From contig JAAELY010000206.1 in NCBI GenBank assembly GCA_024226335.1, positions 1 through 64,000 on the forward strand: a stretch of 64,000 nt of DNA. Direction: 5' to 3'. Made by a program: the position numbers and the translations under genes. This document shows, in pieces, positions 43,041 to 61,082 of the stretch. Under the pieces are notes generated by a model. That model saw only the letters and a list, made by a program, of their open reading frames with translations, ran no database searches and was not told the DNA's origin. Each line of letters opens with the position of its first letter. Position 1 is the first letter of the stretch. The DNA comes from a bacterium (GTDB lineage Bacteria > Myxococcota_A > UBA9160 > SZUA-336).

Positions 43041-44726
43041 TCAGGAGTCGGCGGAACGCACCTGAATTGCGTCCGGGAGTGGGTAGGGCTCGAGGGTATC
43101 CCACACGAAGGTATTGCCCTCGCCGATCCGCTCCAGACCCGAGGCGCCCAGAAATTCCAGACAAGGCTTGTTCTTGGCAGTCGGCAGGTACTCGGCCTCG
43201 ACGCGTTTCGCGCCCAGGCTGCGGGCGTGCTCTACGAGCGTGTGCATCATGACCCGCTCGATCTTGCGGCCGAAGACGCGGCAGCTCAGCACGAAATCGA
43301 CGACCTTCGCGTCGTCACCGGAACACCTCAGGCTGGCAATGCCGGTGAGCCCGGAATCGGCGAAGCGATCCTCCACTCGGAAGGTCCAGAGTTCGTGCGC
43401 CGGATCGTCCTGCCAGGCACCGAGTTCGGCTTCCGTAATGCGCCGCGTACTCAGGTTCATCTGGTTGGTCTTGTTCAGCAATTGGACGGTACGCTTCAGG
43501 TTCGCGGCGCCGAGCTTTTCGACCTGTACCCGTAGCTGAAGCGTGGAGAGCCACTCCTCGACCGACCCGATCGATTCCAATAGCTTTCCGCGCTCGCTCT
43601 CACTGGCGTACATCTCGGTGCGATGCCGGTCTTCATCGGAGATCGACAGGCTGTCGAAACAGCGCAGTCCGAGCAGGGCTTCGGAGTAGAGCATCGGGTC
43701 CTTCGGCCACTCGGGGACGAGCACCTCCGGAAGGGCCTCACGCACCCGCGCGCGCTCGGCTGGATTGTCATCGATGAACACGACCGACTGCAGACCCAGG
43801 TTCAGCTCGCTCACGATCTCAGCGATGTTATGCGCTTTGTCACTCCAGTTGATGCGTCGGGCGACGAAGTCGGATTCCCGCAAGCACATCTCCTCGTGTT
43901 TGCGCAGCGCCTCGAGTGCAATCGCTTCGTCGTTCTTGCTGGCAATCGCCAGCAGGACTCCGCGACTGGAGAGCGCGCGCAATTCCCGCTGGAAGTCACA
44001 AAACGCCTCACCGACCGGATCGTGCCCGCCTAGTGTGAGCGACTGCCAGCCCTCGTCACCGACGACGCCGCCCCAGAGCGTGTCATCCAGATCCAGAACG
44101 ATCAGCTTGCGGGTATCGCCCGCGAGTGTGCGCAGAGCGGCCTTGATGTCGGCGGTTGCTTCCTTGAAGACATCGCGACTGAAGGGAATCTTGGCCATGT
44201 ACCAGTACTTGGATCCGTAGGCGGCCGAACCCGCGGCCTCCATCCAGCGACGCGAATCGATCACCCACACTCCTCGTACATCGCGCAGACGCTCGATCAG
44301 GCGGTGATTCATGCGCATGAGCAAATCGCCCAGGCCTCCTTTCAGGTCGCAAAGCCCGGTTCCTCTGCGAAAACCGGGAATCGTCCAGGTCGCGACCAGT
44401 ACCGCTTTCACGCGATCTGTAGCGCCCTCGATCGCACGGCAAAAAGAGTCGACCTCTTCGAGCGGTCGCTCTAGATCGTGCGACTCACCTCTCTGAAAAG
44501 CGGCAAAGCTCTCGATCACGCCCTCGGGTCGGGTCCAGACCAGCGCCAGATCGTGTGCGTCCCGCCACGCTTCGGCACCGGCGTCGAGCAGGCTCGGCAT
44601 CACCTGACCAAACGGCGTCAGCTTCGCGACCACGGATGGCGCTTCGTCATCATTGCCGAGATAGCCGCTCAGATTTCCCAGATTGAAATCGGAGATCAGC
44701 AGACACGATGTCTTCTGATCCCCCAT
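43041..44726 (-). CDS. FkbH-like HAD-IIIC phosphatase/acyltransferase
   Basis: A 561-residue protein. The N-terminal part (about 1-215) is SGNH-like; the HAD domain has the catalytic [16 protein letters not shown] near residue 225, [12 protein letters not shown] and [11 protein letters not shown]; the C-terminal acyltransferase-like (GNAT) part includes [11 protein letters not shown] and [16 protein letters not shown]. FkbH proteins load glyceryl groups from 1,3-bisphosphoglycerate onto a carrier, and in polysaccharide loci often serve sugar modification. ATG 44726 overlaps the stop of a 35-codon upstream ORF (TGATG). A longer frame to 45407 covers noncoding sequence. Confidence 0.9.
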
Positions 44727-44833
44727 CAACTCTGGACCCCGGCGGCCACCGTCCCGAAAGTCCCGTCGGGGCGCGTCTCGGAAACCTGATCGATGATCTC
44801 GAACCGGATCTGGGCGATCTGCTGCCGATTCAT
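44726..44833 (-). CDS. Small ORF coupled to the FkbH gene
   Basis: A 35-codon frame (MNRQQIAQIRFEIIDQV..., ending AAGVQS) with AGAGGA 4 bases before its ATG, overlapping the FkbH start. FkbH proteins often need an acyl carrier protein, but this peptide lacks the Asp-Ser-Leu attachment motif. It may be a leader peptide for coupling or a remnant. I do not recognise it. Confidence 0.4.
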   Translation of the reverse strand: MNRQQIAQIRFEIIDQVSETRPDGTFGTVAAGVQS

Positions 44834-45245
44834 GCCGTCCTCTGCCGCAAGTAGACTTCGACTCCGCGTCTGATCGCGCCTGCCAGTGCCGCCAGAATCG
44901 TCGTAAGTAGCTATTTTGAAAGCGAATTCTACCAACGGACCAGACTCCAGGCAAGCCTCGTTCGCACCCGCTTTCCTCTCCATCGGTCCGCTCGGAAGAA
45001 TTGCGCATAGGCGTTTGAGCCTGCGGGGCATCCCTCGAATGTCCGAGCGCGGCCCAGTTGCGCGATCTCCGACACTGGCAACCCGTGCGACGATCTGCGG
45101 AAGTCGTGCGCCTGCCCATCGAGCCAGAAAAGAGCTCGATCCGCAGCTGCGCTCCGGGCCCTCGCGGGCGCCTTCCGCGCCTGTTACACATCCGTCTGCG
45201 CCTGACCCAAGTACAGTCCGAACCCTCTCCGGGAACGAGAACCCA
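44834..45245. other. Long intergenic region between divergent FkbH and sulfotransferase genes
   Basis: About 410 bases without a supported gene. The sulfotransferase frame is open through most of it but shows low-complexity Arg/Ser/Pro-rich translation, so I treat it as noncoding. No sigma-54 core with correct spacing was found. It should contain the promoters for both directions. Confidence 0.5.
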
Positions 45246-46166
45246 TTGAGCAATGACGGCAATTCGAATCCCCTGAAGCAGATCGACCGGATCGCGCGGC
45301 GCTGGGTGAGCCAACTGCTCGCCGAGATGCGACGCACACGACGTGAGATCGTAGTCGCGGAATCCACGAGTCCCAGCGAGCCACCCATCTTCTTGACGGG
45401 CGTGCACCGTTCCGGCACGACGCTATTGCGCCTGATCGTCGACAGCCATTCGCGCTTCGCCTGCCCACCGGAGTCATTCTTCCTCACACCGCTGGCTTCC
45501 GTACTCGATGACGCAAAGGCTATGGAAGGTTTTGAAGCGATGGGTTTCTCGCGCGAACACGTGATCGCGCGGATTCGAGAATCCGCCTCCTACTTCTTCG
45601 ACAACTACTGTGCAGCGCGACATAAACCGCGCTGGGCCGACAAGACTCCGAGTTACGTGTCGCACCTTGCGCGGCTGGAAGAACTGTATGGGCCGGCCTG
45701 CCTCTACCCGATGATCTATCGCCACGGACTCGATGCCTCGTGCTCGATCGCCGAGATGCCCAATCGCGACATCACTCCCTTCGTTGAAGCCTGCAAAGGC
45801 GACGCCCACGCTGGTGCCGCGCGTTACTGGTCCACACAGTGCGAGAAGATGCTCGGATTCCAGGCCGCGCATCCCGATCGCTGCCACGAAATCCGCTACG
45901 AACAGCTCGCGAGCGATCCCGAGCCGACGGTCCGAGGCTTGTTCGAATTCCTGGGTGAAGCATGGGAGCCCGAAGTTCTTCGCTTCCACGAACAGGAACA
46001 CGACGAGTGGATCGGCCTGCAAGACGAGAAGGCCGCGCGCTCGCGCGGATTTTCGCCGAGCATCGGCAACTGGCGCGAGCAACCGCGAGACGTGATCGAG
46101 CGGATGCTCGCCGAAGCTGGCGAGACCATGACCCGACTCGGATACGACCTCCCCAGCTCGGACTGA
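45246..46166 (+). CDS. Sulfotransferase family protein
   Basis: A 306-residue sulfotransferase starting at TTG 45246. The 5'-phosphosulfate loop is PIFLTGVHRSGTTLLRLI (about residues 42-59) and the 3'-phosphate-binding region YPMIYRHGLDASCSIAEM. PAPS-dependent sulfotransferases add sulfate to sugars or lipids; in this locus a polysaccharide or its lipid carrier is likely. The C-terminal part has SIGNWREQPRDV as in family PF13469. Its 3' end adjoins the flippase gene (2 bases), which suggests an operon. Start codon is chosen from homology; the frame upstream is open. Confidence 0.85.
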   Translation: MSNDGNSNPLKQIDRIARRWVSQLLAEMRRTRREIVVAESTSPSEPPIFLTGVHRSGTTLLRLIVDSHSRFACPPESFFLTPLASVLDDAKAMEGFEAMGFSREHVIARIRESASYFFDNYCAARHKPRWADKTPSYVSHLARLEELYGPACLYPMIYRHGLDASCSIAEMPNRDITPFVEACKGDAHAGAARYWSTQCEKMLGFQAAHPDRCHEIRYEQLASDPEPTVRGLFEFLGEAWEPEVLRFHEQEHDEWIGLQDEKAARSRGFSPSIGNWREQPRDVIERMLAEAGETMTRLGYDLPSSD

Positions 46167-49839: not shown

Positions 49840-52395
49840 TCAACCAGCATCCTCGGCGTCAGGCGCGGGGTCGAGATGCGTCAACTCACAACCCAGATCG
49901 CGCAGATAGCGCGTGGCCACATTCTTCATGTCGACACCGGAAAGCGACGCCCTACTCGGCCCAAAGGTCGGCTTCTTCACATACAGGGCGATTCCGATCT
50001 GAAGTTCCGACAAGGAAGAGTCTCGGATCTCGACATCGGAAAGATCCTTGATTGCGATCCCGGTGTAGCCATCCCGGATCCGGTTGCGCACGACCCGTGC
50101 CCTGGTGCCTTCGCCCAGACTCATACCCTTGTCGCCGCAGCCCGTGATGGTGTTTCGTTCGATTGAAACATCGGACCCACTGAAATCGATTCCGTCACCG
50201 CCCGCATCGATCACACGGTTTCCAGATACGTCGCCGACGCAGAAGTCGCAGTCGAAAGCATCATCGCGCGAACGTTCGATCACGTTGTTCTCGACCCGCA
50301 CCTCCGCGTACTTCAGGTTCAGGCCATCGTCAGCCAAAGCGTCTACGAAGCGGTTTTCGCGCAGGATCACAACGCCATCGTGGACAGCAAACGGAGAAGT
50401 AAAATGGGTCCGCTCGCTCGACGCGCCCTTGCCTCCGCGAATCCGCACATACTCCAGATGAACGCGGCTCGGCGCACTGCGCGTCCCCTGTACGGCGACC
50501 GCACCCCAATCCCGGCGACCCTTGATCCCACCCACGCGAATGGGCCGATCGGAGTTGCCAATCGCTTCTAGGTCGCCATGCAGAATCAGCGCAACGCCGC
50601 TTGCGAGTTGCAGATCGAGCCCGGGCGCGAAGCGAACATCTGTGTTCTCCGGAATCTCGACAGTGTGCTTCAACACGACTCGTCCGGGACCGAAAATCAG
50701 AAGATCGCCGCGTTGCTTCACATTGGCCAGACCGAGATTCAGCCTGACTTGCTCCACCATCGGCTGTTGGGGCGGACGCCCCTTGCCCGCCTCGATTGAA
50801 AACTCCGCGTCCGCAATCGGTTCCCCCGTTATCCCGTTACTCGCCGCGAATCCGACCAGCTTCGCGTCGATCGGGGCTTTTACCGCCACCACGGACCGGC
50901 CCGGCTCCGCCTGCCAAAGTCCATCCACGATTAGCGGCTGGTTCATCTGACGTTCCTCGAGTCCTCGCGGCCGTTCGAGTGTGTATCCGGTGATGCGAAC
51001 GAATGACTTGGATGGATTCTCGAACTCAATCGCCACGCGCCCCGCAGGCAGCCTCCAGAAACGCGCGTGCATGTCTCGGCGTTCGAACAACAGACGCAGG
51101 AAATCGCGATTTCCCCGCAGGGCTTCGAGATAGTCCGCCTGGCGCTTCCGATCCAGTTCCAGGCTCATGTGGCGCCAGTCGTGACGCAGGGGTTCGGTCA
51201 ACCTGTCGAACAGGTTTTGAGCGTGGTCGATCATCGGCTCCACGCGTTTCGTGATCAACTCCCAGGCACGCTGGTCCCGCAAACGACGAAACTCTGGAAC
51301 ACTGCAGAACGTCAGGCCGTAACCGCGGGCCAGAGTCTCACCCTCGACGTCGCGTTCTTGATTCAGGGGATACGCCGCATAGTCCCACGGGATGGGCTCG
51401 AATTTGCCTCGTGCAGGATCCCAGAACATTCGCAAGTTGTCGGGATGCCAGGCGTGGTTCGAGTGCAGGAGGAGCTTGAGAGCAGCCGCCCAGGCCCAGC
51501 GATCGACGTCCAGATAGTCGCGCAGGAATGACCACTGCGCGCAATGTGGTGCGGGCTCAGCCGCTTCCGCAGTATTGCAAGACTTGAGTCGCTCCATGGC
51601 CGGACCGGCCTTGTCGTAGGCTGCGCCCTGCTTGCCGAAGAGCTGACCGTAGCCCGAAAAGATAAAGCCCTCCGGTCGCCCCGTGCGATCCACCATGCTG
51701 CGACCAAAGTGTTCGATCTCCTGGAAGAGACCCACCGTCCTGGAGTTGACCCGAAGTACCACGAAACGGCTTTCCCAGGTCAGGATTCCGTAGCGTTCCA
51801 GTTCCCAGTTGGTGGTCACGTCGACGGTAAGACCCTTGTCGTAGGGATCCGTAAGGTTGATCTGGCGCTTGCCTTCGAAGAGTCGATCCTTCGGAAACTT
51901 CAGACGCAGCGAGGGACGGTTCTTCAAATAGTGTGTGCTGTACAAACCGCGCAACTTCACCTGGATCGGACGCCAGCCTTCGGCATCTCGGAATTGCGCG
52001 GGTACGTAGTCGCGCGGGATGTCGGTAGAGATGTGTTGGGCGGTCACACGTTCGGCAATCGTCTGAAGTGCCTTCATGCCCTTTGGATCGATCCTCAGAT
52101 CGTACACACGCAAGCCGCTTTCGAGCAGCGCCTGGCTGGCCCTGGGACGCGGTATCTGATCGTTGGTATTCAGGACGATCGTGCGCAGGGGATCGCTCCA
52201 GCGCAAAGCTTCGGCCCCCCGAACGCCTACGCGAGCTTCGCCGTATGCCAGATAGCGCTGGACGTACTCGCCGCCGAAGAACAACACGGCGATGGCGAAG
52301 GCCGCGGCCCCGATTGCGACGAGAACTCTGAGCTTGGCGGACTTCTCCGGGCGCCCCGTGTAGACGCCGTCGAAGAGGTCCCTAGAATGGGGCAT
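49840..52395 (-). CDS. CotH kinase-domain protein with C-terminal parallel beta-helix
   Basis: An 851-residue protein. A single membrane anchor lies at about 22-45 (VLVAIGAAAFAIAVLFFGG). The CotH-like kinase region (about 90-470) includes PSLRLKFPKDRLF, VGLFQEIEHFGRSMVD, a WHPDNLRMFWDP motif and IPWDYAAYPLN, matching the CotH pattern DNYYLY.DP..GKF..IPWD. The C-terminal part (about 590-830) is made of right-handed beta-helix repeats (NVIERSRDDAFDCDFC; NRVIDAGGDGIDFSGS; NTITGCGDKGMSLGEG). Bacterial CotH proteins are atypical kinases that phosphorylate secreted proteins; the beta-helix could bind polysaccharide. It is the last gene of a four-gene cluster. Confidence 0.85.
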   Translation of the reverse strand: MPHSRDLFDGVYTGRPEKSAKLRVLVAIGAAAFAIAVLFFGGEYVQRYLAYGEARVGVRGAEALRWSDPLRTIVLNTNDQIPRPRASQALLESGLRVYDLRIDPKGMKALQTIAERVTAQHISTDIPRDYVPAQFRDAEGWRPIQVKLRGLYSTHYLKNRPSLRLKFPKDRLFEGKRQINLTDPYDKGLTVDVTTNWELERYGILTWESRFVVLRVNSRTVGLFQEIEHFGRSMVDRTGRPEGFIFSGYGQLFGKQGAAYDKAGPAMERLKSCNTAEAAEPAPHCAQWSFLRDYLDVDRWAWAAALKLLLHSNHAWHPDNLRMFWDPARGKFEPIPWDYAAYPLNQERDVEGETLARGYGLTFCSVPEFRRLRDQRAWELITKRVEPMIDHAQNLFDRLTEPLRHDWRHMSLELDRKRQADYLEALRGNRDFLRLLFERRDMHARFWRLPAGRVAIEFENPSKSFVRITGYTLERPRGLEERQMNQPLIVDGLWQAEPGRSVVAVKAPIDAKLVGFAASNGITGEPIADAEFSIEAGKGRPPQQPMVEQVRLNLGLANVKQRGDLLIFGPGRVVLKHTVEIPENTDVRFAPGLDLQLASGVALILHGDLEAIGNSDRPIRVGGIKGRRDWGAVAVQGTRSAPSRVHLEYVRIRGGKGASSERTHFTSPFAVHDGVVILRENRFVDALADDGLNLKYAEVRVENNVIERSRDDAFDCDFCVGDVSGNRVIDAGGDGIDFSGSDVSIERNTITGCGDKGMSLGEGTRARVVRNRIRDGYTGIAIKDLSDVEIRDSSLSELQIGIALYVKKPTFGPSRASLSGVDMKNVATRYLRDLGCELTHLDPAPDAEDAG

Positions 52396-53086
52396 GCTGG
52401 TCGCTCTGATAGATCGAGAGGTTCACGACTCCCTCGACCGCGCGCAGCCTCCGTTCGACATCTTCGGGCTGCTTGGCCGGATCCGGCCGCACCACATAGA
52501 CGTTGGTCTCCTCATCATCCCCGAAATCGAGGATCCGATTGATCAGACGTGACTCGCGGAATGCATCATCGATTTCGGCTTCGATCTTCCGGAGCGTCTC
52601 CTCATCGGTCTTGTATGTGACTCGAAGCACGCTCTCCAGCTTCTGCTTGATCCCGTAGTCGAACCAGTACAGAGCGAGCAACAACGCGGACAGAAAGAAC
52701 GTCATGCCGATGGACGCGAGATAGAACTGCGTTCCGCAACCCATCCCGGCGATCATCGCTGTGAAGAGAAAGCCGGTATCCCGAGAATCCTTGACGGCGG
52801 TGCGAAAACGGATGATGGACAGCGCGCCGACGAGACTGAAGGCTCGCGCGATATTGCTTCCGATGATCATCATGACCACACTGGTCGCCACGGCCATCAT
52901 GAACATGGTCACAAGGAAGGACTGGGAATAGCTCGTGCCGCGATGCGTGAAGCGATAGACGTGAGCCAGCACAAAGGCGAGCAGTGTCGACACGGTCATC
53001 GCGAGAAAGAGGTCGGGGGTGCTGAAGATATCCGTTTGCGACGGCTGAAACAGCTTGTCGAGGAAATAGTTCGACTCTTCGCTCAT
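52382..53086 (-). CDS. DUF4956 membrane protein
   Basis: A 234-residue protein with four hydrophobic segments (about 28-130), including MFMMAVATSVVMMIIG, and the family signature ARAFSLVGALSIIRFRTAVKDSRDTGFLFTAM (named by parts: FSLVGALSIIRFRTA, DSRDTGFLF). The C-terminal soluble part (about 145-234) is a ferredoxin-like domain. DUF4956 genes are commonly found beside VTC-domain and CotH genes. The fold near the RFRTA segment resembles MgtC-type membrane proteins. Its start overlaps the end of the VTC gene (ATGA), and its end overlaps the CotH gene by 14 bases. Function unknown. Confidence 0.85.
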   Translation of the reverse strand: MSEESNYFLDKLFQPSQTDIFSTPDLFLAMTVSTLLAFVLAHVYRFTHRGTSYSQSFLVTMFMMAVATSVVMMIIGSNIARAFSLVGALSIIRFRTAVKDSRDTGFLFTAMIAGMGCGTQFYLASIGMTFFLSALLLALYWFDYGIKQKLESVLRVTYKTDEETLRKIEAEIDDAFRESRLINRILDFGDDEETNVYVVRPDPAKQPEDVERRLRAVEGVVNLSIYQSDQHAPF

Positions 53087-53823
53087 GCGTAAACTCCCGA
53101 ACCGTTGAGCTCGTGAAGACGAAGTACTTCTACGGCGGTGATGTATTTCGGAATCGTCTGCTGTTTGAGTTCAGCGCGCACGATTCCCTGGTGAATCCAG
53201 CCTGGAATGCCTTTGGTCGCCTTAACCTCGAGGATCATCAGCGTTTCGGGCATCAGGTGTCGCGACCGGTTCAAGAGTAGCCCGGGTGTCAGCCTCTCGC
53301 CGGGAAACAGGCCGATCAAATTGCTGTCGAACGTGACGCGGATGTCGCCTTCGACAACCCCTTCATAGGCCTCGCGTTGATAGTAGGTCTGAGCCGAAGC
53401 GCGCAGATGGTAGCGTTCTTTGAGGGTCAGGAAGGAATTCTTCATGACGGGATCGTCGAAGTGCCAGTTGTCGGGATCCAAATGAATGGAAGGGTCGAAG
53501 TCTCGGATCTGATAGCGGTACTTCTGCACCTGATCGTTGAACCGGTGCTTGATCTCTAGAAACGCGGTAGTGCCTTTGCGGTAGAGCATGTCGTAGACGC
53601 GCAGCCGGACCTTGTTGCGCTTCTGCGTACCCGCGAGTTTCTCTTCATAGAAGTCGAGGTGAGGAGAATCGTAGTACTGACTGAGAATCGGCGCCATCGC
53701 GTGCTCGTCTGTAAACGGTGCTCGTACCAGGTGGCGGCTCCAGTGTGCAAGCAGCATCTCCCGGACGCTGTGGTGCACCAGGAACTTCAACTCGTCGCGA
53801 AACGGCCGAATGATCGAACTCAT
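53083..53823 (-). CDS. VTC-domain (polyphosphate polymerase-like) protein
   Basis: A 246-residue protein of the VTC/triphosphate-tunnel class. Typical charged strands are visible: RDELKFLVHH (E-L-K-F start), QYYDSPHLDFYEEK, KVRLRVYDM, FLEIKHRF and VTFDSNLIGLF. In yeast, Vtc4 makes polyphosphate in such a tunnel; most bacterial VTC proteins next to DUF4956 and CotH have no proven activity. It lacks membrane helices. Gene order is CotH-like, VTC, DUF4956, CotH-beta-helix, with gaps of -14 to 3 bases, so the products are made together. Confidence 0.88.
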   Translation of the reverse strand: MSSIIRPFRDELKFLVHHSVREMLLAHWSRHLVRAPFTDEHAMAPILSQYYDSPHLDFYEEKLAGTQKRNKVRLRVYDMLYRKGTTAFLEIKHRFNDQVQKYRYQIRDFDPSIHLDPDNWHFDDPVMKNSFLTLKERYHLRASAQTYYQREAYEGVVEGDIRVTFDSNLIGLFPGERLTPGLLLNRSRHLMPETLMILEVKATKGIPGWIHQGIVRAELKQQTIPKYITAVEVLRLHELNGSGVYA

Positions 53824-53825
53824 CT

Positions 53826-54857
53826 TCAGAGTTCCCCCGTTTCTAGACCAAGACCAGCAACGGCCGACCGTCGCCTCGTAAACTCGACGCGAACCCGCTC
53901 CTCTCGCTGATGCAGAACCGCGTCAGTTCGCAATGCAGCCCTCAACGAGCGGGCGAAATCGGGAAAGTCCGCGGCCAGATCAAGCTCGTCTACCTTGGAC
54001 AAGGGTGAGTCATCCGCGCCACGCCAGTCCCCCTCACTCCAGCGACGCGCGCGCTCGTCGGTCACCTCCAAGGGCCGGCGACCGGACTTGGCCTCGAACA
54101 ACTCCGGCAACGAGATCGGTAAGGGCAAGAGGCTGAGATCATGAGGTTCGAGATTGGACATCAACAGGGCCGTTTCGGGGAGAGGGTTTTTCCGGGCCAG
54201 CCAGGCAAGCCGTGCACTCGGCGCGCGCAGTTGCGGAAAGCTGCCGGACGCGACGGCACCCATGTAGATTCCCGGCGCATCGTCGAAGCGAGTATCGACC
54301 ACATTCACGCGATCGCCCTGGACGGTGAGGATCTCACGCAAGATTCCGCTGCCTCCGTCCTTCTTGCGCTCGTCGAAGGGCAACCCGACCCGCAGATACA
54401 AGCCCTGATACACGCGATCGACGTGCAACTGGGTCCATTCGACGCGCGGCAAGGCGAGTTCAGGGTTCCGCTCGCGTACGAACTCGTACAGATAGGGATA
54501 CGTCCAGTCCGCAACACTCAGAGCTGGAACGAAGAACACGGTGCCCTTGCCGCGTCGTTTGGATTGAACCAGCCAGCGATCGCCCAGACCGTCTTCGCCA
54601 GTGATGCGGAAGATCTTCCACTTTCGGCCGGGCTGCCCGCGATCCGAACGACGCATGGTGGAGTCGCGGCGATCCACGACGTAACCGGATCCGCGCTCGG
54701 TCGTGTGAAACATGAGGAATGTATTGGCGAAACCAGAGGCCTCGACGTCCAGATTGGCCATGCGAGCGGCGCGGTTTGCCGGTCCGAGCCAGGCCACGAG
54801 ACCCAGGCTCAAGACCAGGGCAAGCGCGGCCGGCCACAGGGTTCTGAGTTGGATCAA
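53826..54857 (-). CDS. CotH-like protein, first gene of VTC/DUF4956/CotH cluster
   Basis: A 343-residue protein starting at TTG 54857 (GGAG about 6 bases upstream). Residues 8-27 form a membrane anchor or signal (ALALVLSLGLVAWLG). The middle part has WLVQSKRRGKGTVFF, a segment typical of the strand before the CotH nucleotide site, then VDRVYQGLYLRVGLP, resembling the CotH N.EYQGLY.L. pattern. I do not see the DN and IPWD catalytic motifs of the larger CotH protein, so this may be a non-catalytic or divergent copy. Role is inferred from position only. It may act in the envelope. Confidence 0.6.
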   Translation of the reverse strand: MIQLRTLWPAALALVLSLGLVAWLGPANRAARMANLDVEASGFANTFLMFHTTERGSGYVVDRRDSTMRRSDRGQPGRKWKIFRITGEDGLGDRWLVQSKRRGKGTVFFVPALSVADWTYPYLYEFVRERNPELALPRVEWTQLHVDRVYQGLYLRVGLPFDERKKDGGSGILREILTVQGDRVNVVDTRFDDAPGIYMGAVASGSFPQLRAPSARLAWLARKNPLPETALLMSNLEPHDLSLLPLPISLPELFEAKSGRRPLEVTDERARRWSEGDWRGADDSPLSKVDELDLAADFPDFARSLRAALRTDAVLHQREERVRVEFTRRRSAVAGLGLETGEL

Positions 54858-54879
54858 AGTCGGCTCCGGGCTCCTGAGC

Positions 54880-54899
54880 GATGCTCAAAACTGAGCATC
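54880..54899. promoter_or_regulatory. Perfect dyad upstream of the CotH/VTC cluster
   Basis: GATGCTCA, 4 bases (AAAC), TGAGCATC: a perfect 8-bp inverted repeat 23 bases upstream of the first cluster gene and 48 bases after the O-antigen ligase stop. It could be an operator for the cluster or a hairpin terminator for the ligase transcript, though no U-run follows. Confidence 0.5.
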
Positions 54900-54946
54900 T
54901 CCGAGCAATTAGGAAATCGAAGAGAGCACCGCAAGAAGCTCCCGGG

Positions 54947-56278
54947 CTAGTCTGGAGAGACGTTGAAACGATCGACGTAGGCGCGCGCCGTCATCCCGAA
55001 CTGGAGCCAGAAATAGGCGGCGATCGGTTTGGTGTAGAGAAAACCCGTCGATGTGAGGTTGGCGACGGCCACCCACGCGGTTACACCGATGAACATGGTG
55101 CCCATACCGCGTTCAGGCGTGTTGGACGACCAAAGCCTGAGCCCGTGCAATCCGCAGGAACCGAACAGCCAGGCAAGTACGGCCAGCCCGATCAGGCCCG
55201 TCTCGGCCGCCATCTTGACCGGTAGGCTGTGCGCATCCTTCATCTTGAGCAGACCGTATTTTGCTCCCCACTCCGGTGTTTTTAGCGTGAAGTAGTGCAG
55301 ACCGTGTCCCCATATGGGCGAAGCCTGGAACATTTCGAGACCCACGCTGTAGGTCACGACGCGAGCCGCCGCCGAGCCCTCAAGGTTCTCACCCCCCGGA
55401 ATCCGGTAGACGGTCTGGCCGCGATTTTGAGTCACGCCAGATACGCGATCCTGGACGATACTCGGCAGAAACGGGAACGCGATCGTGGCCGCGAGCACGA
55501 GTCCGACAAAGCCCACCCCGAGCATCTGTCGGTTCACGAAGAGAAGGAACAAGGCATGCGATGCGAGCAGCGCGAGCCAATTCCCCCGCGACAGACTCAG
55601 CACGATCGCGACGCCGCTCAACCCGTAGGCAACCAGATGAAACAGGCGTTTGACGGGGCTGAGGTCCTTGGCGTGGAGCACCAGATACAGCGACGCAAAC
55701 ATGGTCGTGCCGATCACCTGCGCCATGGCGTTGGGATCGTCGAGCAACCCATGCGCACGACTGCCGTCGCTCTTTGGATGGATCGGAATGAAGTAATCGA
55801 AGATGCCGAAGACGGCGACCGTGAGGCCCGCAAACGAGATCGCTTGAATCAGACGCCGCCGATCTTTCGGATCACCGAAGAACCAGAATGCGGGAAAGAA
55901 CAGGAAGGAGGTAAACACCATGCTCTTGAAAATCTGGAAGACCTTCCAGAGCGCAGACTCGCCGCCGGCCAACTGCACGCTTCGAACCCAGGGCAGGGCC
56001 AGGAGGAAGGCGAACAGGATCATGCCGATGAAAGCAACCACCGGCCCCGTGTAGCGCACCGGGGGGAAATGCACGCCGTAGCGCAAGAAAGTAAAAGCCA
56101 TTGCGAGACCGACGAGGAGGGTCTCTGTGTTCAGACCTGGAACAGGCAGACGTGGCGCCCAGAGGTTGATCGGGTAGATCGCCGCGATGGCGATCACGCC
56201 CCAGACAGGCTTGTAAAACAACAGAACGAGGGCGATGAACGCTAACGCGCCCGCAGGGAACTGCAGTACCTCCGCCAT
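54947..56278 (-). CDS. O-antigen ligase/polymerase (Wzy-like) membrane protein
   Basis: A 443-residue membrane protein with about 10-12 helices, from ATG 56278 with AGGAGG upstream (ATG 56329 also possible). The family mark is the long periplasmic loop followed by DAHSLPVKMAAETGLIG, the His-Ser/Asn segment of Wzy_C proteins. It should polymerise or ligate the lipid-linked repeat units outside the inner membrane. A sigma-54 promoter (P3) lies 85 bases before it, separating it from the WecA-like gene. The late loop is unusually rich in basic residues. It is the kind of polymerase found in XrtA loci. Confidence 0.85.
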   Translation of the reverse strand: MAEVLQFPAGALAFIALVLLFYKPVWGVIAIAAIYPINLWAPRLPVPGLNTETLLVGLAMAFTFLRYGVHFPPVRYTGPVVAFIGMILFAFLLALPWVRSVQLAGGESALWKVFQIFKSMVFTSFLFFPAFWFFGDPKDRRRLIQAISFAGLTVAVFGIFDYFIPIHPKSDGSRAHGLLDDPNAMAQVIGTTMFASLYLVLHAKDLSPVKRLFHLVAYGLSGVAIVLSLSRGNWLALLASHALFLLFVNRQMLGVGFVGLVLAATIAFPFLPSIVQDRVSGVTQNRGQTVYRIPGGENLEGSAAARVVTYSVGLEMFQASPIWGHGLHYFTLKTPEWGAKYGLLKMKDAHSLPVKMAAETGLIGLAVLAWLFGSCGLHGLRLWSSNTPERGMGTMFIGVTAWVAVANLTSTGFLYTKPIAAYFWLQFGMTARAYVDRFNVSPD

Positions 56279-56362
56279 CCTCGATCGTCCTCCTATTGCC
56301 ACTCTGGCGCGCGCCCGTCCGTGGCGCATCCGAGTGGGTTCTCAATGGGCGGTTGACTCTTT

Positions 56363-56378
56363 TGCAGATTCGGTGCCA
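56363..56378 (-). promoter_or_regulatory. Sigma-54 (-24/-12) promoter P3
   Basis: Minus strand reads TGGCACCGAATCTGCA, with GG and GC 10 bases apart; only one base of the -12 TTGC differs. It lies in the short gap between the WecA-like gene end (56399) and the ligase start. I found no clear enhancer repeat near the expected -90 position, which falls inside the WecA-like coding sequence. Confidence 0.65.
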
Positions 56379-56398
56379 TGCCTGCCCTGCACCGTCAA

Positions 56399-57568
56399 TC
56401 AGCCTGTGGCACGCTCCCGTTGAGGGACCTCGGACTCGGCTGTCAACGACTCGTTCAAAGCAGAATCGGCATCCGCCTCGAGGCGCTTGACGCGGCGCTC
56501 CAACATCTGCAACGCGAGATAGCCGCCCGCCAACAGCGCGATCCACAGGCCCCAGCGAACCCCCGAACTGGCCGTCCGGGTCCAAAGTCCCAGCGCGCCC
56601 AGCGCTGCCGAAAGAATGTAGAGTGCGATCAGGATCTGTTGCACGCTCCATCCAGCCCTGAGCAGCAGATGGTGCACGTGGCCTCGATCCGCACGGAACA
56701 TCGCCCGGGCAACCTCGATCAGACGCAAGCCGCTCTCACCCGGATCTCTCACATACGAAATCGCCCGGCGAATCGCGCTGCGAATCATGTCGAGCAACGG
56801 CACGCCCAGGATCAGAAGCGGTACGACAAGGGCTACGGCCGCGGTCGCCTTCTGGTATGCGGCCATCGAGAGTACGGCCGTCGTGAAACCAATCCCCATC
56901 GATCCGGCATCGCCCAGAAAGATGCGAGCCGGAGGCAGGTTGAAGCGCAGGAACCCAGCGAGCGCGCCGGAAAGCGCCAATGCGGCGATGACCGGCACCG
57001 TGGCGCCATTGTCATGCGCGAGCAAGAAAACCGTAAGAGCGACGATGATCGACACTCCGGACGCCAGACCGTCCATTCCATCCATGAGATTGAAAGCATT
57101 GGTGACGACGACGATCCAACCCACGGTCATCAGGAAGGACAGCGCACCGCCCGAACTGATCATCCAGCCAAAGGGAAGCGAGATCGCATCGATGCGAAAA
57201 CCGAGTCCCCAGGCAAGTGCACCGACCCCGATCTGCGCGACCAGCTTCAGTACGGGTGCCATGTCCCGGAAATCGTCGTACAAACCGACCGCCACCATCG
57301 CGAAAGCCCCGACGGCGAGAGCGGAAAGCGAGCCCGGACCCCAGAGCCCCGCTCCGACGTCTGGCACGACCGGGATGATCAACAGCAGACCGAGGACGAT
57401 CGAGATGAAGACCGAAACCCCACCCACAAGTGGCGTGGCGGATTGATGCTGCTTGCGCACATCCGGCTGGTCCAGCCAGCCCTGCCGATGCGCGAGGCGG
57501 ATCAGCAGAGGTGTGAGGACCAGGACCAGCAGCCATGGCGCAATCAGAATGGGGCCGAACGTCTGCAT
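56399..57568 (-). CDS. Undecaprenyl-phosphate sugar-1-phosphate transferase (WecA/MraY family)
   Basis: A 389-residue polytopic protein. Family motifs: VGLYDDFRDMAPVLKL (the DDxxD-like magnesium site), NAFNLMDGMDGLASGV (the conserved NxxNxxDGxDGL) and ARIFLGDAGSMGIGF. It transfers a sugar phosphate from UDP-HexNAc onto undecaprenyl phosphate, the first step of repeat-unit assembly. No cytosolic glycosyltransferase domain is attached. A variable C-terminal tail (about 335-389) may be coiled coil. It lies 65 bases downstream of the tyrosine kinase gene in the same direction. Confidence 0.92.
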   Translation of the reverse strand: MQTFGPILIAPWLLVLVLTPLLIRLAHRQGWLDQPDVRKQHQSATPLVGGVSVFISIVLGLLLIIPVVPDVGAGLWGPGSLSALAVGAFAMVAVGLYDDFRDMAPVLKLVAQIGVGALAWGLGFRIDAISLPFGWMISSGGALSFLMTVGWIVVVTNAFNLMDGMDGLASGVSIIVALTVFLLAHDNGATVPVIAALALSGALAGFLRFNLPPARIFLGDAGSMGIGFTTAVLSMAAYQKATAAVALVVPLLILGVPLLDMIRSAIRRAISYVRDPGESGLRLIEVARAMFRADRGHVHHLLLRAGWSVQQILIALYILSAALGALGLWTRTASSGVRWGLWIALLAGGYLALQMLERRVKRLEADADSALNESLTAESEVPQRERATG

Positions 57569-57633
57569 ACCGTTAGGATCTCACAGTTTCCCGAAGGCCG
57601 GCGTTCATTTCTTCGACCCGGCGAGTTCCCGGA

Positions 57634-58530
57634 TCAGTCCTTGCCGTAAGTACCATACGGGGACTGCTTCGCCTCACAACGGTTGAACACGGTCCCGATC
57701 AACTTGCTCGTGTCGAGGCGCTCGAGGGCCGCATCCACGTCGGCGCGGCTTACGCTACCCGCGCCAACGACGAAGAGCGCTGCATCACAGGCGTCCAGGA
57801 GACTTACCGAGTCCGCCAGCCCGAGGACCGGCGGCGCATCGATGATGATCATCTCGAAATGGCCGGCGAGTTCCTCGAGCAGTTGGGCCATTCTCGCCGA
57901 ACCGAGGAGTTCGGAGGGATAGGTCGGTAGCGCTCTCACCGGCAGAACCGAAAGACGCGAATCGGGCAGTTCGATGAGCGCGTCCGATAGCTTCGCATCC
58001 GTCTCCAGTACCTCGGCGAGACCCACTTCGGACGTCGGACCAAAGACCTTGCTGACTCCCGGTGTGCGGAGATCTGCATCGACCAGGCATGTCTTCATTT
58101 CACGGTCCATGCCGAACGACAGGGCCAGATTGATGGCAGTCGTGGTCTTGCCTTCATCGGGACGAGCCGAAGTAATCACGAGACTTGCGATCGTTCGCGT
58201 GCGACGCACCGACTGGATACGCGCTCGTAGCGTTCGGTACTCCTCGGTGACGTTTGACGCGGTGCTCCCGATCAGGACTCGTGGTCGCTGCGCTTCAAGA
58301 GAATGATCTTCTTTTCCGCGTTCCGTGCGGATGCGCAGCTTCTTGCGCGCGCGGCGTTCGCGGCGAGTTTCCTCGCGGGGTTTTCGGATCTCGGTACGCT
58401 TCGAAGGCGCTGAAACGCTCCCCCTGTCGGTCGCGGTACCAGAACCCTCGCGCAACAGGGGCGTCGCCGTACTGGCTACGCTGCTGCGCTGTTGCTCGGC
58501 TCTTTGCAGGGCATCGTGAATCTTTCCCAT
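57634..58530 (-). CDS. Tyrosine autokinase (CpsD/CapB type, XrtA-locus subfamily)
   Basis: A 298-residue BY-kinase that works with the chain-length protein. N-terminal linker is MGKIHDALQRAEQQ and basic, then RVLIGSTASNVTEEYRTLRARIQ and the ATP site SARPDEGKTTTAINLA, with the Walker A' acidic VDADLR. A Walker B-like IIIDAPPVL follows. The tail SPYGTYGKD has two tyrosines that could be autophosphorylated. The opening GKIHDALQRAE is the mark of the XrtA-associated subfamily. It lies between the ExeA-like ATPase and WecA-like genes. Confidence 0.9.
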   Translation of the reverse strand: MGKIHDALQRAEQQRSSVASTATPLLREGSGTATDRGSVSAPSKRTEIRKPREETRRERRARKKLRIRTERGKEDHSLEAQRPRVLIGSTASNVTEEYRTLRARIQSVRRTRTIASLVITSARPDEGKTTTAINLALSFGMDREMKTCLVDADLRTPGVSKVFGPTSEVGLAEVLETDAKLSDALIELPDSRLSVLPVRALPTYPSELLGSARMAQLLEELAGHFEMIIIDAPPVLGLADSVSLLDACDAALFVVGAGSVSRADVDAALERLDTSKLIGTVFNRCEAKQSPYGTYGKD

Positions 58531-58546
58531 GTCTTGACCTCTTTCC

Positions 58547-59494
58547 CTACAGCTCGCCTAGAGCGCCTGCTCTCGGGGTCCGTCGCCACCCGAACATTCT
58601 CCTAATCCAACCCTCGGATGGCTCGTTGCCGATCTCGTCCGATACAACAACAGCCTCTTCTTTCGGCGCTGGTTTCGCTTCGTCATCCAGAAGGCCCATG
58701 TCACGGGCGGCCTTCTCGATCGTCGCCGGTGTGACCCTTTCGTCGACCGAGGCGTAGGCCGTGAGCAATGCGTTGTCACACAAAACGTTGATCACGCGCG
58801 GAATCCCAGCCGTCAACTTGAACACCAATCGCAGAGCCGCGTGGGTGAACACATCACCGCTACTATTGCCCGCCACCATCATCCGCTCATTCACGTAGGT
58901 TGCAGTTTGATGAGCATCCAGAGATTGGATCGTATGCCGTAACTCGACCCTCTGGCGCAGCTGGCGCAACTTGGACTGCTCGAGCTTTTCGTGGAGTTCC
59001 GGCTGCCCGACCAGGATGATCTGCAGGAGTTTTGACTGCGGCGTCTCCAGATTCGAGAGCATGCGAATCTCTTCGAGCAGTTCATCGGAGAGGTTCTGCG
59101 ACTCGTCGATCACGAGCAATGTCTGCTTGCCTTTGCGCAATCGTTCGATCAGATGATGATTCAAACGCCGCAGAGCGGTGCTCTTGCGAAACGGCTCCAC
59201 AGACTCCAGATCGAGTTCATCGAGCATGCAGGCAAAGAAGTCGTCGATCCCAAGCGCGGTATTGAACAGATACACGGCCTGCACATCGTCGCTGAGTTTC
59301 TGCAGCAGAGCGTTGACGATCGTCGTCTTGCCGGTGCCCACTTCACCTGTGAGAACGATGAAGCCCTTGCGCTCATTGACCGCGTAGATCAGGGTCGCGA
59401 GGGCTTCCTGATGGCTCTCTGACATATAGAGAAACCGCGGATCGGGATTGACGCGGAACGGATCCGCTGAGAAGCCAAAGTGTTCGTTATACAT
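58547..59494 (-). CDS. ExeA-like AAA+ ATPase of exopolysaccharide locus
   Basis: A 315-residue ATPase starting at ATG 59494. It begins YNEHFGFSADPFRVNPDPRF, typical of ExeA/GspA-type proteins and of the XrtA-associated ATPase. Walker A is GEVGTGKTTIVNALL, Walker B LLVIDESQNL, and the C-terminal part has GIPRVINVLCDNALL. It may assemble export complexes. Start overlaps the end of the chain-length gene by 8 bases. The C-terminal end (about 285-315) is basic and could anchor the protein. No PG-binding domain is attached, unlike ExeA of type II secretion. Confidence 0.9.
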   Translation of the reverse strand: MYNEHFGFSADPFRVNPDPRFLYMSESHQEALATLIYAVNERKGFIVLTGEVGTGKTTIVNALLQKLSDDVQAVYLFNTALGIDDFFACMLDELDLESVEPFRKSTALRRLNHHLIERLRKGKQTLLVIDESQNLSDELLEEIRMLSNLETPQSKLLQIILVGQPELHEKLEQSKLRQLRQRVELRHTIQSLDAHQTATYVNERMMVAGNSSGDVFTHAALRLVFKLTAGIPRVINVLCDNALLTAYASVDERVTPATIEKAARDMGLLDDEAKPAPKEEAVVVSDEIGNEPSEGWIRRMFGWRRTPRAGALGEL

Positions 59495-61082
59495 GGGCAA
59501 CCATCACAGCTACCGTCGCAGCTTTTGGAGTCACCTGAGTTACTTTCTTGGCGTCGGCGCGAGTCGCAAAGTACAGAATCGTTCCTCCAATGAGGAGAGC
59601 CGCCAGGATCGCGGCACTCGACGCGCTCCACGCCCAGACGCGTCTTCGCGAATGATCCTTGGGAAACTCTACGGACGGCACAGCTGCAAGCACGGGCATG
59701 CCGAGCGCCTTCTGCACATCGGCGACGCTGTGGAACGTCTGATCTGAGAGTTCGCGAATAACCAGCAACGCCAGGCCTGCGATCACGCCGAGCAATGTTC
59801 CGGCGATGAACCAGAGCGGCCGATTCGGCTTGAAGGGAGAGGTCGGCGGTACGGCGGACTCCACGATCTTGAAGCGCTCGCCCTTGTTGGCGAGTTCGAT
59901 GGTGCGACCCATGTCGGCGTCGACTTTCTTGAGCTGGATCGCGCGAATCGCGGTGTGCAGTGTCTCGTAGCCCTTGGTCAGATGGTCGAGTTCCGCCTGG
60001 CGTCGCGGCGTGTTCTCGATGCGCTGCTCGAGGTCGGCGATCTCCGCCTTGAGTCGCTCGACTTCACCCGCGTACACGCGCTGACTGACCTCGTAGTCGC
60101 GCGCCTCGTTTTTCAGCTTGACCATGGAAATTGAAGTCGGAGCCGGAGCCTCAGCCTGATCGACGATCATGGCCTCGAGAGCGGCGATCTCGGCGCGTAC
60201 AAGTCGTACATCGGGATGCTTGTCGGTCTTGCCCTGCGAGATGATGCTCGTCAGTGTCAGTTCGAGCGCCTTCTTTCGGTCTTCGGGATCGCTCGGACCG
60301 CCCGCTGCAGCAGCGTTCATCTCCTGGATCTGTTGTTCCAGTAGCCGCGTCTGGTTGCGAGCTGTCTCGAGCTTCGCCTCGTGCGCGGCCAGATCCATGC
60401 GCGTGCGCTCCAGACGCTCACGGTTCAGGAGCAACTGCTCGGGTAGCTCGCCCTGGAAGTTCTCTTTGTAGTCCGTGATCTGACGGCCGACATCGGCGAG
60501 TTCGGTGCGCGCCTTGCCGAGTTCCTGCTCGAAGAACTCGGTCGTGCCTTCAGCCATGCTCGCGCGATCTCTGAGGTTGGCCGAGATGAAATCGCGGGTC
60601 AGCCGGTTCGTGACCTCAGCAGCGATCTTCGGCTTGTCCCAACTGAACGCGATTCGGAAAGAGTTCAGCTCGACCAGCTTGCGCGGATCGTAGATGGCGG
60701 GCGGCAGCGGCGCGACCGTGATGCGCGCGCGCAGGTCATCGATCAGGTCTTCGCGCGGAGCGGTCTCGCCCTCGAAGAGCTTGAATTCGTCGATTACCTC
60801 GTTGAGGTTGTCGCGGGCCAGAACCTGTAGGCGAAGGTTCTCGTAGCGAGCCTCAGTGGGGGCTGTAATCGTGGTATGTGCCAGTTCGGGTGGGATGACC
60901 TGTGGTTCGACCGCAACAGTCGCTTCGGCTTCGTACTCGGCAGGCAATACCATGGCCAGAACAGCCGAGAAGACCATCGCGATCCCAACCGGTACCAGAA
61001 ACCACCAGATTCGACGGCGGAAGACCTGAACCAGATCCCCGAGACTCAGCCCGAGTTCGCCCTGTACGTCTCTCGTCGCCAT
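59487..61082 (-). CDS. Polysaccharide chain-length determinant (Wzz-type)
   Basis: A 531-residue protein with an N-terminal cytosolic part, first transmembrane helix (about 26-50), a long periplasmic region rich in coiled coil (about 190-400: FFEQELGKARTELADVGRQ; LERTRMDLAAHEAKLET; VERLKAEIADLEQRIENT), then a second helix (NRPLWFIAGTLLGVIAGLA, about 428-447) and a third near 488-510. It controls chain length and couples to the tyrosine kinase. ATG 61082 has GGAAAGGG upstream. It begins an operon chain-length, ATPase, kinase, WecA-like, driven by P1. The third helix and C-terminal tail are unusual compared with classical Wzz. Confidence 0.92.
   Translation of the reverse strand: MATRDVQGELGLSLGDLVQVFRRRIWWFLVPVGIAMVFSAVLAMVLPAEYEAEATVAVEPQVIPPELAHTTITAPTEARYENLRLQVLARDNLNEVIDEFKLFEGETAPREDLIDDLRARITVAPLPPAIYDPRKLVELNSFRIAFSWDKPKIAAEVTNRLTRDFISANLRDRASMAEGTTEFFEQELGKARTELADVGRQITDYKENFQGELPEQLLLNRERLERTRMDLAAHEAKLETARNQTRLLEQQIQEMNAAAAGGPSDPEDRKKALELTLTSIISQGKTDKHPDVRLVRAEIAALEAMIVDQAEAPAPTSISMVKLKNEARDYEVSQRVYAGEVERLKAEIADLEQRIENTPRRQAELDHLTKGYETLHTAIRAIQLKKVDADMGRTIELANKGERFKIVESAVPPTSPFKPNRPLWFIAGTLLGVIAGLALLVIRELSDQTFHSVADVQKALGMPVLAAVPSVEFPKDHSRRRVWAWSASSAAILAALLIGGTILYFATRADAKKVTQVTPKAATVAVMVAHV

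Follow-up and report, generated by a model that had tools for sequence, protein, structure and literature searches.

The eukaryotic VTC complex (Vtc1/Vtc3/Vtc4) (PMC9911596), the Gram-positive Pel clusters (PMC7112168), the NELoc-2 locus of C. perfringens (PMC2879425) and the CotH kinase of B. subtilis and B. cereus (structures 5jd9 and 5jda) are the closest described relatives of the locus considered here, a four-gene module at positions 49840-54857 of a 64,000-nucleotide stretch of bacterial DNA (contig JAAELY010000206.1, assembly GCA_024226335.1, lineage Myxococcota_A), hereafter the window. The module is transcribed in the order p4, VTC, DUF4956 and CotH-beta-helix, where p4 is a putative second CotH-like protein and the last gene fuses a CotH fold to a right-handed beta-helix. 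How polyphosphate or phosphate groups would get past the inner membrane of bacteria is a standing question, and no ATP supply is obvious for CotH-type proteins that lie beyond the cytoplasm; both points would have a direct, testable answer in a VTC-DUF4956 core to which either of two outer ends can be joined. We read the module, with slightly less than even confidence, as an envelope-spanning system that would make a phosphate polymer, likely polyphosphate, and pass it outside the inner membrane to the CotH-fold/beta-helix proteins.

With the eukaryotic complex the window shares a VTC domain bearing the Vtc4 active-site residues, an adjacent membrane-partner gene and predicted synthesis on the cytoplasmic side, but it has neither an SPX domain nor Vtc1-type helices, an MgtC-like DUF4956 protein standing in their place and CotH-fold/beta-helix proteins being added (PMC9911596). 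The Pel clusters likewise hold cotH, a polyphosphate polymerase and DUF4956 together and beside polysaccharide genes; the window CotH, however, carries a beta-helix fusion and no Asp228, a second, seemingly degenerate CotH-like gene is present, and the host locus is of Wzy type and occurs in relatives without the module (PMC7112168). NELoc-2 likewise unites CotH and VTC genes in one locus, each VTC gene having a small membrane protein next to it, although no beta-helix is reported there and the membrane protein is annotated as a tubulin/FtsZ GTPase (PMC2879425). The Bacillus CotH kinase has the same middle-domain fold as the window protein, which keeps the Asp251 position but is non-acidic at the Asp228 position, faces outward by prediction and carries the beta-helix. 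What is new relative to the known CotH/VTC/DUF4956 set is the beta-helix fusion, the loss of the kinase Asp, the second, seemingly degenerate CotH-like gene and the standing of the module as an accessory in a Wzy-type locus.

The gene set and its VTC-DUF4956 core

The four minus-strand genes are closely packed: p4 (53826-54857; 343 aa, TTG start) is separated by a gap of 2 nt from the VTC gene (53083-53823; 246 aa), which overlaps the DUF4956 gene (52382-53086; 234 aa) by 4 nt, and this in turn overlaps the CotH-beta-helix gene (49840-52395; 851 aa) by 14 nt. A preliminary description of the locus had reported a tight, co-directional set and had remarked that CotH, VTC and DUF4956 genes occur together in bacteria. 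The open reading frames agree with the first point, and that the set is a conserved module is borne out by three other genomes with the identical genes in the identical order, one from the same family (L024), one from the same class (L025) and one from the same phylum (L046). Identity with these relatives is 38-55% for p4, 58-68% for VTC, 66-76% for DUF4956 and 39-52% for CotH-beta-helix. Because gene set and order recur in this way, the arrangement is not due to chance. The nearest named records are uncultured 'Myxococcales' and 'Deltaproteobacteria' assemblies.

The VTC protein matches PF09359 (E = 5e-33) and thus belongs to the family of triphosphate-tunnel, polyphosphate polymerase-like proteins; hydropathy gave no transmembrane segment, as for a soluble, cytoplasmic protein. 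When a profile of 26 homologues was compared with solved structures, Vtc4 (3g3q) was the best match (E = 6e-23), with Vtc2 and Vtc3 ranking below it. Residues K13, R73, R75, K92, K101, R150, R162, E199 and K226 are invariant among the homologues and align, in order, with Vtc4 K200, R264, R266, K281, K294, R361, R373, E426 and K458; R264, R266 and E426 belong to the active site, and the others are basic residues of the tunnel. R264, R266 and E426, conserved in the window as R73, R75 and E199, are the residues substituted to obtain a catalytically impaired VTC complex (PMC9911596), and R264 and R266 are essential for synthesis (PMC8749416). Since the Vtc4 active-site residues are kept, the window VTC protein is probably an active polymerase, in line with the polyphosphate-polymerase-like tunnel first assigned to it.

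The DUF4956 protein is a member of PF16316 (E = 3e-14), as initially called, with three strong hydrophobic, presumably transmembrane, segments by hydropathy and invariant columns at R93, R95, G114 and G118 in the homologue alignment. The literature on this family is very scant, and a sequence search against solved structures returned nothing significant. Seventeen of 26 DUF4956 homologues match the MgtC family PF02308 (best E = 2e-6), and a profile comparison with MgtC (hhalign) gave E = 1e-4 at a probability of 55. These hidden Markov model matches of DUF4956 proteins (window 52382-53086; L026) suggest a superfamily link between DUF4956 and MgtC.

CotH-beta-helix and p4

The 851-aa protein is composed of a CotH fold (residues ~90-450), a beta-rich linker and a right-handed beta-helix (~557-840). 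The initial beta-helix call holds (Pfam Beta_helix PF13229, E = 3e-12), and the CotH match (PF08757, E = 1.7e-4) scores 21.6 bits, just below the 23.8-bit cut-off. The CotH fold is clearer from the AlphaFold2 model (predicted local distance difference test score, pLDDT, 82), for which Foldseek placed CotH 5jda first (E = 4e-14; template modelling score 0.74 on the target), followed by the beta-helix proteins GH87 glucanase, the AlgE4 and AlgG epimerases, alginate lyase and NosD. A single N-terminal signal anchor (residues 22-40) is predicted to face the protein outward, and 20 of 22 beta-helix-fused CotH proteins have an anchor of this kind, flanked by basic residues on its N-terminal side. 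In three loci (L034, L040 and L121) the module has two CotH-beta-helix genes, with strongly degenerate CotH active sites.

Along successive coils of the beta-helix runs a ladder of acidic and basic residues (D690, D712, D715, D734, D737, K756, S759, E762, K783 and S786) that is kept in most of 23 fused proteins. Together with the glucanase, epimerase and lyase matches, this conserved Asp/Lys/Glu ladder could be taken to mean that the beta-helix works as an epimerase, lyase or hydrolase that tailors a surface polysaccharide, with VTC, DUF4956 and CotH serving to anchor, energise or regulate it. We consider this unlikely: the same Foldseek list contains non-enzyme beta-helices (NosD, adhesins), the AlgE4/AlgG catalytic motif was not seen by eye in the beta-helix alignment, where the ladder looks different, and polysaccharide genes are missing from the vicinity of two of the four four-gene loci.

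The CotH domain itself departs from the described kinases at a critical position. Asp228 is essential in B. subtilis CotH, where D228Q inactivates the protein (PMC7821199), and the window protein has in its place His314 if profiles are aligned, or Ala315 if the sequence is aligned pairwise with 5jd9. This column is acidic in only 2 of 22 fused CotH proteins, whereas it is acidic in 41 of 43 unfused ones (Fisher P = 2e-12, which ignores kinship). The preliminary description had named missing catalytic residues as evidence against itself, and the outcome at Asp228 is largely of that kind. The position of Asp251 is kept as D338; it is the less informative of the two, because roughly half of the unfused proteins, like 9 of 22 fused ones, have a residue other than Asp there. 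On these alignments the window CotH domain is more likely a binding scaffold, and so a likely pseudokinase, than a protein kinase, and the pattern is most simply read as selection on the beta-helix, with the CotH part as a scaffold.

The preliminary description had favoured phosphorylation or polyphosphate modification of an exported polymer or matrix protein; on this view the CotH proteins would be active kinases that act in a Wzy-type polysaccharide pathway, with VTC/DUF4956 supplying the phosphate. The adjoining Wzy, WecA and Wzz genes would fit such a role, as would the streptococcal, clostridial and bifidobacterial Pel clusters, in which cotH, a polyphosphate polymerase and DUF4956 are accessory genes (PMC7112168), the Gram-positive loci L157 and L159, in which a VTC-DUF4956-CotH set keeps the Asp motif and CotH has an N-terminal export signal or anchor, and some other beta-helix modules (L042 and L043) near GT2/Wzx/AlgX-like genes. 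Phosphorylation by CotH is nevertheless not the best reading, because the Asp228 position is non-acidic in 20 of 22 fused proteins, that of the window included; no C-lobe motifs were seen in p4, and, as described below, the polysaccharide locus occurs without the module in two same-family genomes and Wza is rarely near VTC. We therefore regard active kinases as improbable here. A plasmid search added three Gram-positive or actinobacterial records that lacked usable annotation and were read with profiles built for this analysis. In records from E. faecalis and Nonomuraea, VTC-DUF4956 is accompanied by a CotH in which the Asp is retained and the N-terminus bears an export signal or anchor.

That p4 is also a CotH protein, as had been claimed, stands in part. 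The protein is signal-anchored by a single N-terminal transmembrane segment (residues 7-25), is predicted to face outward, and is restricted to the four-genome clade. It has no match in Pfam or NCBIfam, and its AlphaFold2 model is weak (pLDDT 52); the top Foldseek match of that model among PDB structures is B. cereus CotH (5jda/5jd9; E = 1.7e-3, probability 1.00), over 167 aligned columns. The p4 motif VNRVYQGLYLR aligns weakly with the VNG..GlY strand of CotH (hhalign against 66 CotH sequences; probability 25, E = 8e-4), and a direct profile comparison of p4 with CotH-beta-helix, using three sequences each, found no link. The matched region resembles the N-lobe, and the C-lobe catalytic motif of CotH was not seen in p4. 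With the weak model matching CotH best, p4 may be a degenerate CotH-like protein. The preliminary description had taken the modified target to be an exported one, and in this it is supported by the N-terminal anchors, which predict an outward orientation for both CotH-fold proteins.

Proposed alternative outer partners of VTC-DUF4956

Across 99 VTC loci, counting partners encoded on the same strand at a distance of up to 5 kb, DUF4956 accompanies VTC in 92, an HlyD-type adaptor in 61, a TolC-type protein in 30 and CotH-beta-helix in 20; HlyD was present in 1 of 20 control regions. None of the 99 loci has both HlyD and CotH-beta-helix (Fisher P = 8e-11, ignoring kinship). Mapped on the VTC tree, the beta-helix label requires 7 changes, and because at least 4 of these are forced by supported branches, more than one event is involved. 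This distribution is as expected for HlyD(-TolC) and CotH-beta-helix being alternative outer partners of one VTC-DUF4956 core: the same-phylum HlyD(-TolC) loci share that core with the window, but a periplasmic adaptor and an outer-membrane channel replace CotH-beta-helix.

The envelope-spanning reading draws on the gene set, its conservation, the conserved residues, the predicted folds and anchors and the HlyD/TolC alternation, from which we infer what the polymer is, that DUF4956 transports it and what the CotH-beta-helix protein does. In the cytoplasm VTC would use ATP to build a phosphate polymer, most likely polyphosphate, and DUF4956, its MgtC-like and near-constant neighbour, would carry or couple the chain across the inner membrane, much as the yeast Vtc membrane channel does. 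Two signal-anchored periplasmic proteins, p4 and CotH-beta-helix, would form the receiving end, where the beta-helix with its ladder is the more likely working surface and may bind or process a glycan or phosphate chain. The predicted topology fits this layout, VTC being soluble, DUF4956 multi-spanning, and p4 and CotH-beta-helix each held by a single N-terminal anchor. In a more specific form, which we think rather unlikely, VTC-DUF4956 would be an export core in general, DUF4956 passing polyphosphate either to HlyD-TolC or to outward CotH-fold proteins, for which it would serve as phosphate donor or ligand where there is no ATP, and CotH proteins of the beta-helix class would be non-kinase receptors.

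Several points weigh against the envelope-spanning reading. The equivalent of Vtc4 K455 is not conserved in the 26-sequence VTC alignment, and the conduit role of DUF4956 comes from gene partnership and MgtC likeness, even though the window protein itself does not match PF02308 and the likeness stays under the MgtC cut-off. MgtC proteins are not known to be polymer channels, and our literature search found no activity for any bacterial VTC-DUF4956 pair. The exclusion between HlyD and CotH-beta-helix is partly inherited within VTC clades, so the counts are not independent. Lastly, the retention of D338 at the Asp251 position and the His shared by 8 of 22 fused proteins at the Asp228 column leave room for an unusual activity of the CotH domain. 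The MgtC family is better known for regulation and for Mg2+/phosphate stress, and VTC and DUF4956 could accordingly be a phosphate or energy sensor or regulator, with the CotH-fold proteins sensing outside and no polymer made or moved, but this seems improbable, as the polymerase active site is kept in VTC and the presence of HlyD and TolC genes nearby in most relatives points to export, not sensing.

Among the loci surveyed, VTC-DUF4956 is directly joined by an HlyD-type adaptor, often with a TolC-type gene, in L071, L073, L097, L100, L104, L110, L112 and others, an arrangement found in the majority of the phylum's VTC-bearing genomes; no description of VTC-DUF4956-HlyD(-TolC) loci was found in the literature searched. 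Additional genes accompany some beta-helix modules. A secreted calcineurin-like metallophosphoesterase lies directly 3' of CotH-beta-helix in L026 (15350-16402), L027 and L061 (15813-16955), the same loci in which a membrane-anchored TPR-like protein is encoded between DUF4956 and CotH, and a phosphate-selective porin O/P-like protein is encoded beside the module in L065 (13743-14786), L066, L067 and L068. Both the metallophosphoesterase and the porin count in favour of the envelope-spanning reading.

The surrounding polysaccharide locus

Directly upstream of the module, on the same minus strand and judged to be outside it, are genes for Wzy, WecA, a tyrosine autokinase, an XrtA-type ATPase and Wzz (54947-61082), and past its 3' end lie GT2, sulfotransferase and Wzx genes. 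Two genomes of the window's family (G007 and G009) have the same order of histidine kinase, sigma-54 regulator, Wzz, XrtA-type ATPase, tyrosine kinase, WecA and Wzy, but there the next genes after Wzy are a small one on the opposite strand and one for a sigma-54 regulator, with no module; G009 additionally has Wza and a porin-like gene after Wzy. In that gap after Wzy the window has the module, along with several kb of DNA encoding sulfotransferases, Wzx and GT2 proteins.

The modules of the relatives sit elsewhere: that of L024 adjoins an AbgT transporter, that of L025 adjoins carbamoyltransferase and GDSL genes, and that of L046 is near genes which, on reading of the open reading frames, resemble HMG-CoA lyase and biotin carboxylase. 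Two of these three are outside polysaccharide genes, and 3 of 67 VTC-bearing genomes, all of one family, have Wza no more than 20 kb from VTC; some other beta-helix modules (L042 and L043 again) do have polysaccharide genes nearby. A fixed place for the module in a polysaccharide operon is ruled out by the G007/G009 synteny and the Wza survey. Relatives carry the Wzy-type polysaccharide locus without the module, which is an accessory there, and the link is local, given the two genomes without the module, the different settings in relatives and the rarity of Wza near VTC. The preliminary description had tied the module to an exported polysaccharide and had named random genomic contexts as evidence to the contrary; the varied neighbours of the relatives' modules are of that kind, and the tie is local to the window's own locus, with a recurrent link known from the Gram-positive Pel clusters (PMC7112168).

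Folding of the RNA from the Wzy-p4 gap (54858-54946) was no better than that of shuffled sequences, and a promoter and terminator scan of the gap gave nothing above chance; the gap contains a perfect 8-bp hairpin, GATGCTCA-GTTT-TGAGCATC, without a T run. The inserted stretch of the window is bounded by Wzy on one side and by the sigma-54 regulator/Wza part on the other, and it includes a 788-aa minus-strand open reading frame (43041-45407) with no Pfam match, which may not be a real gene. The XrtA-type polysaccharide locus (window 39098-61082) is conserved in same-family genomes (L160 and L161).

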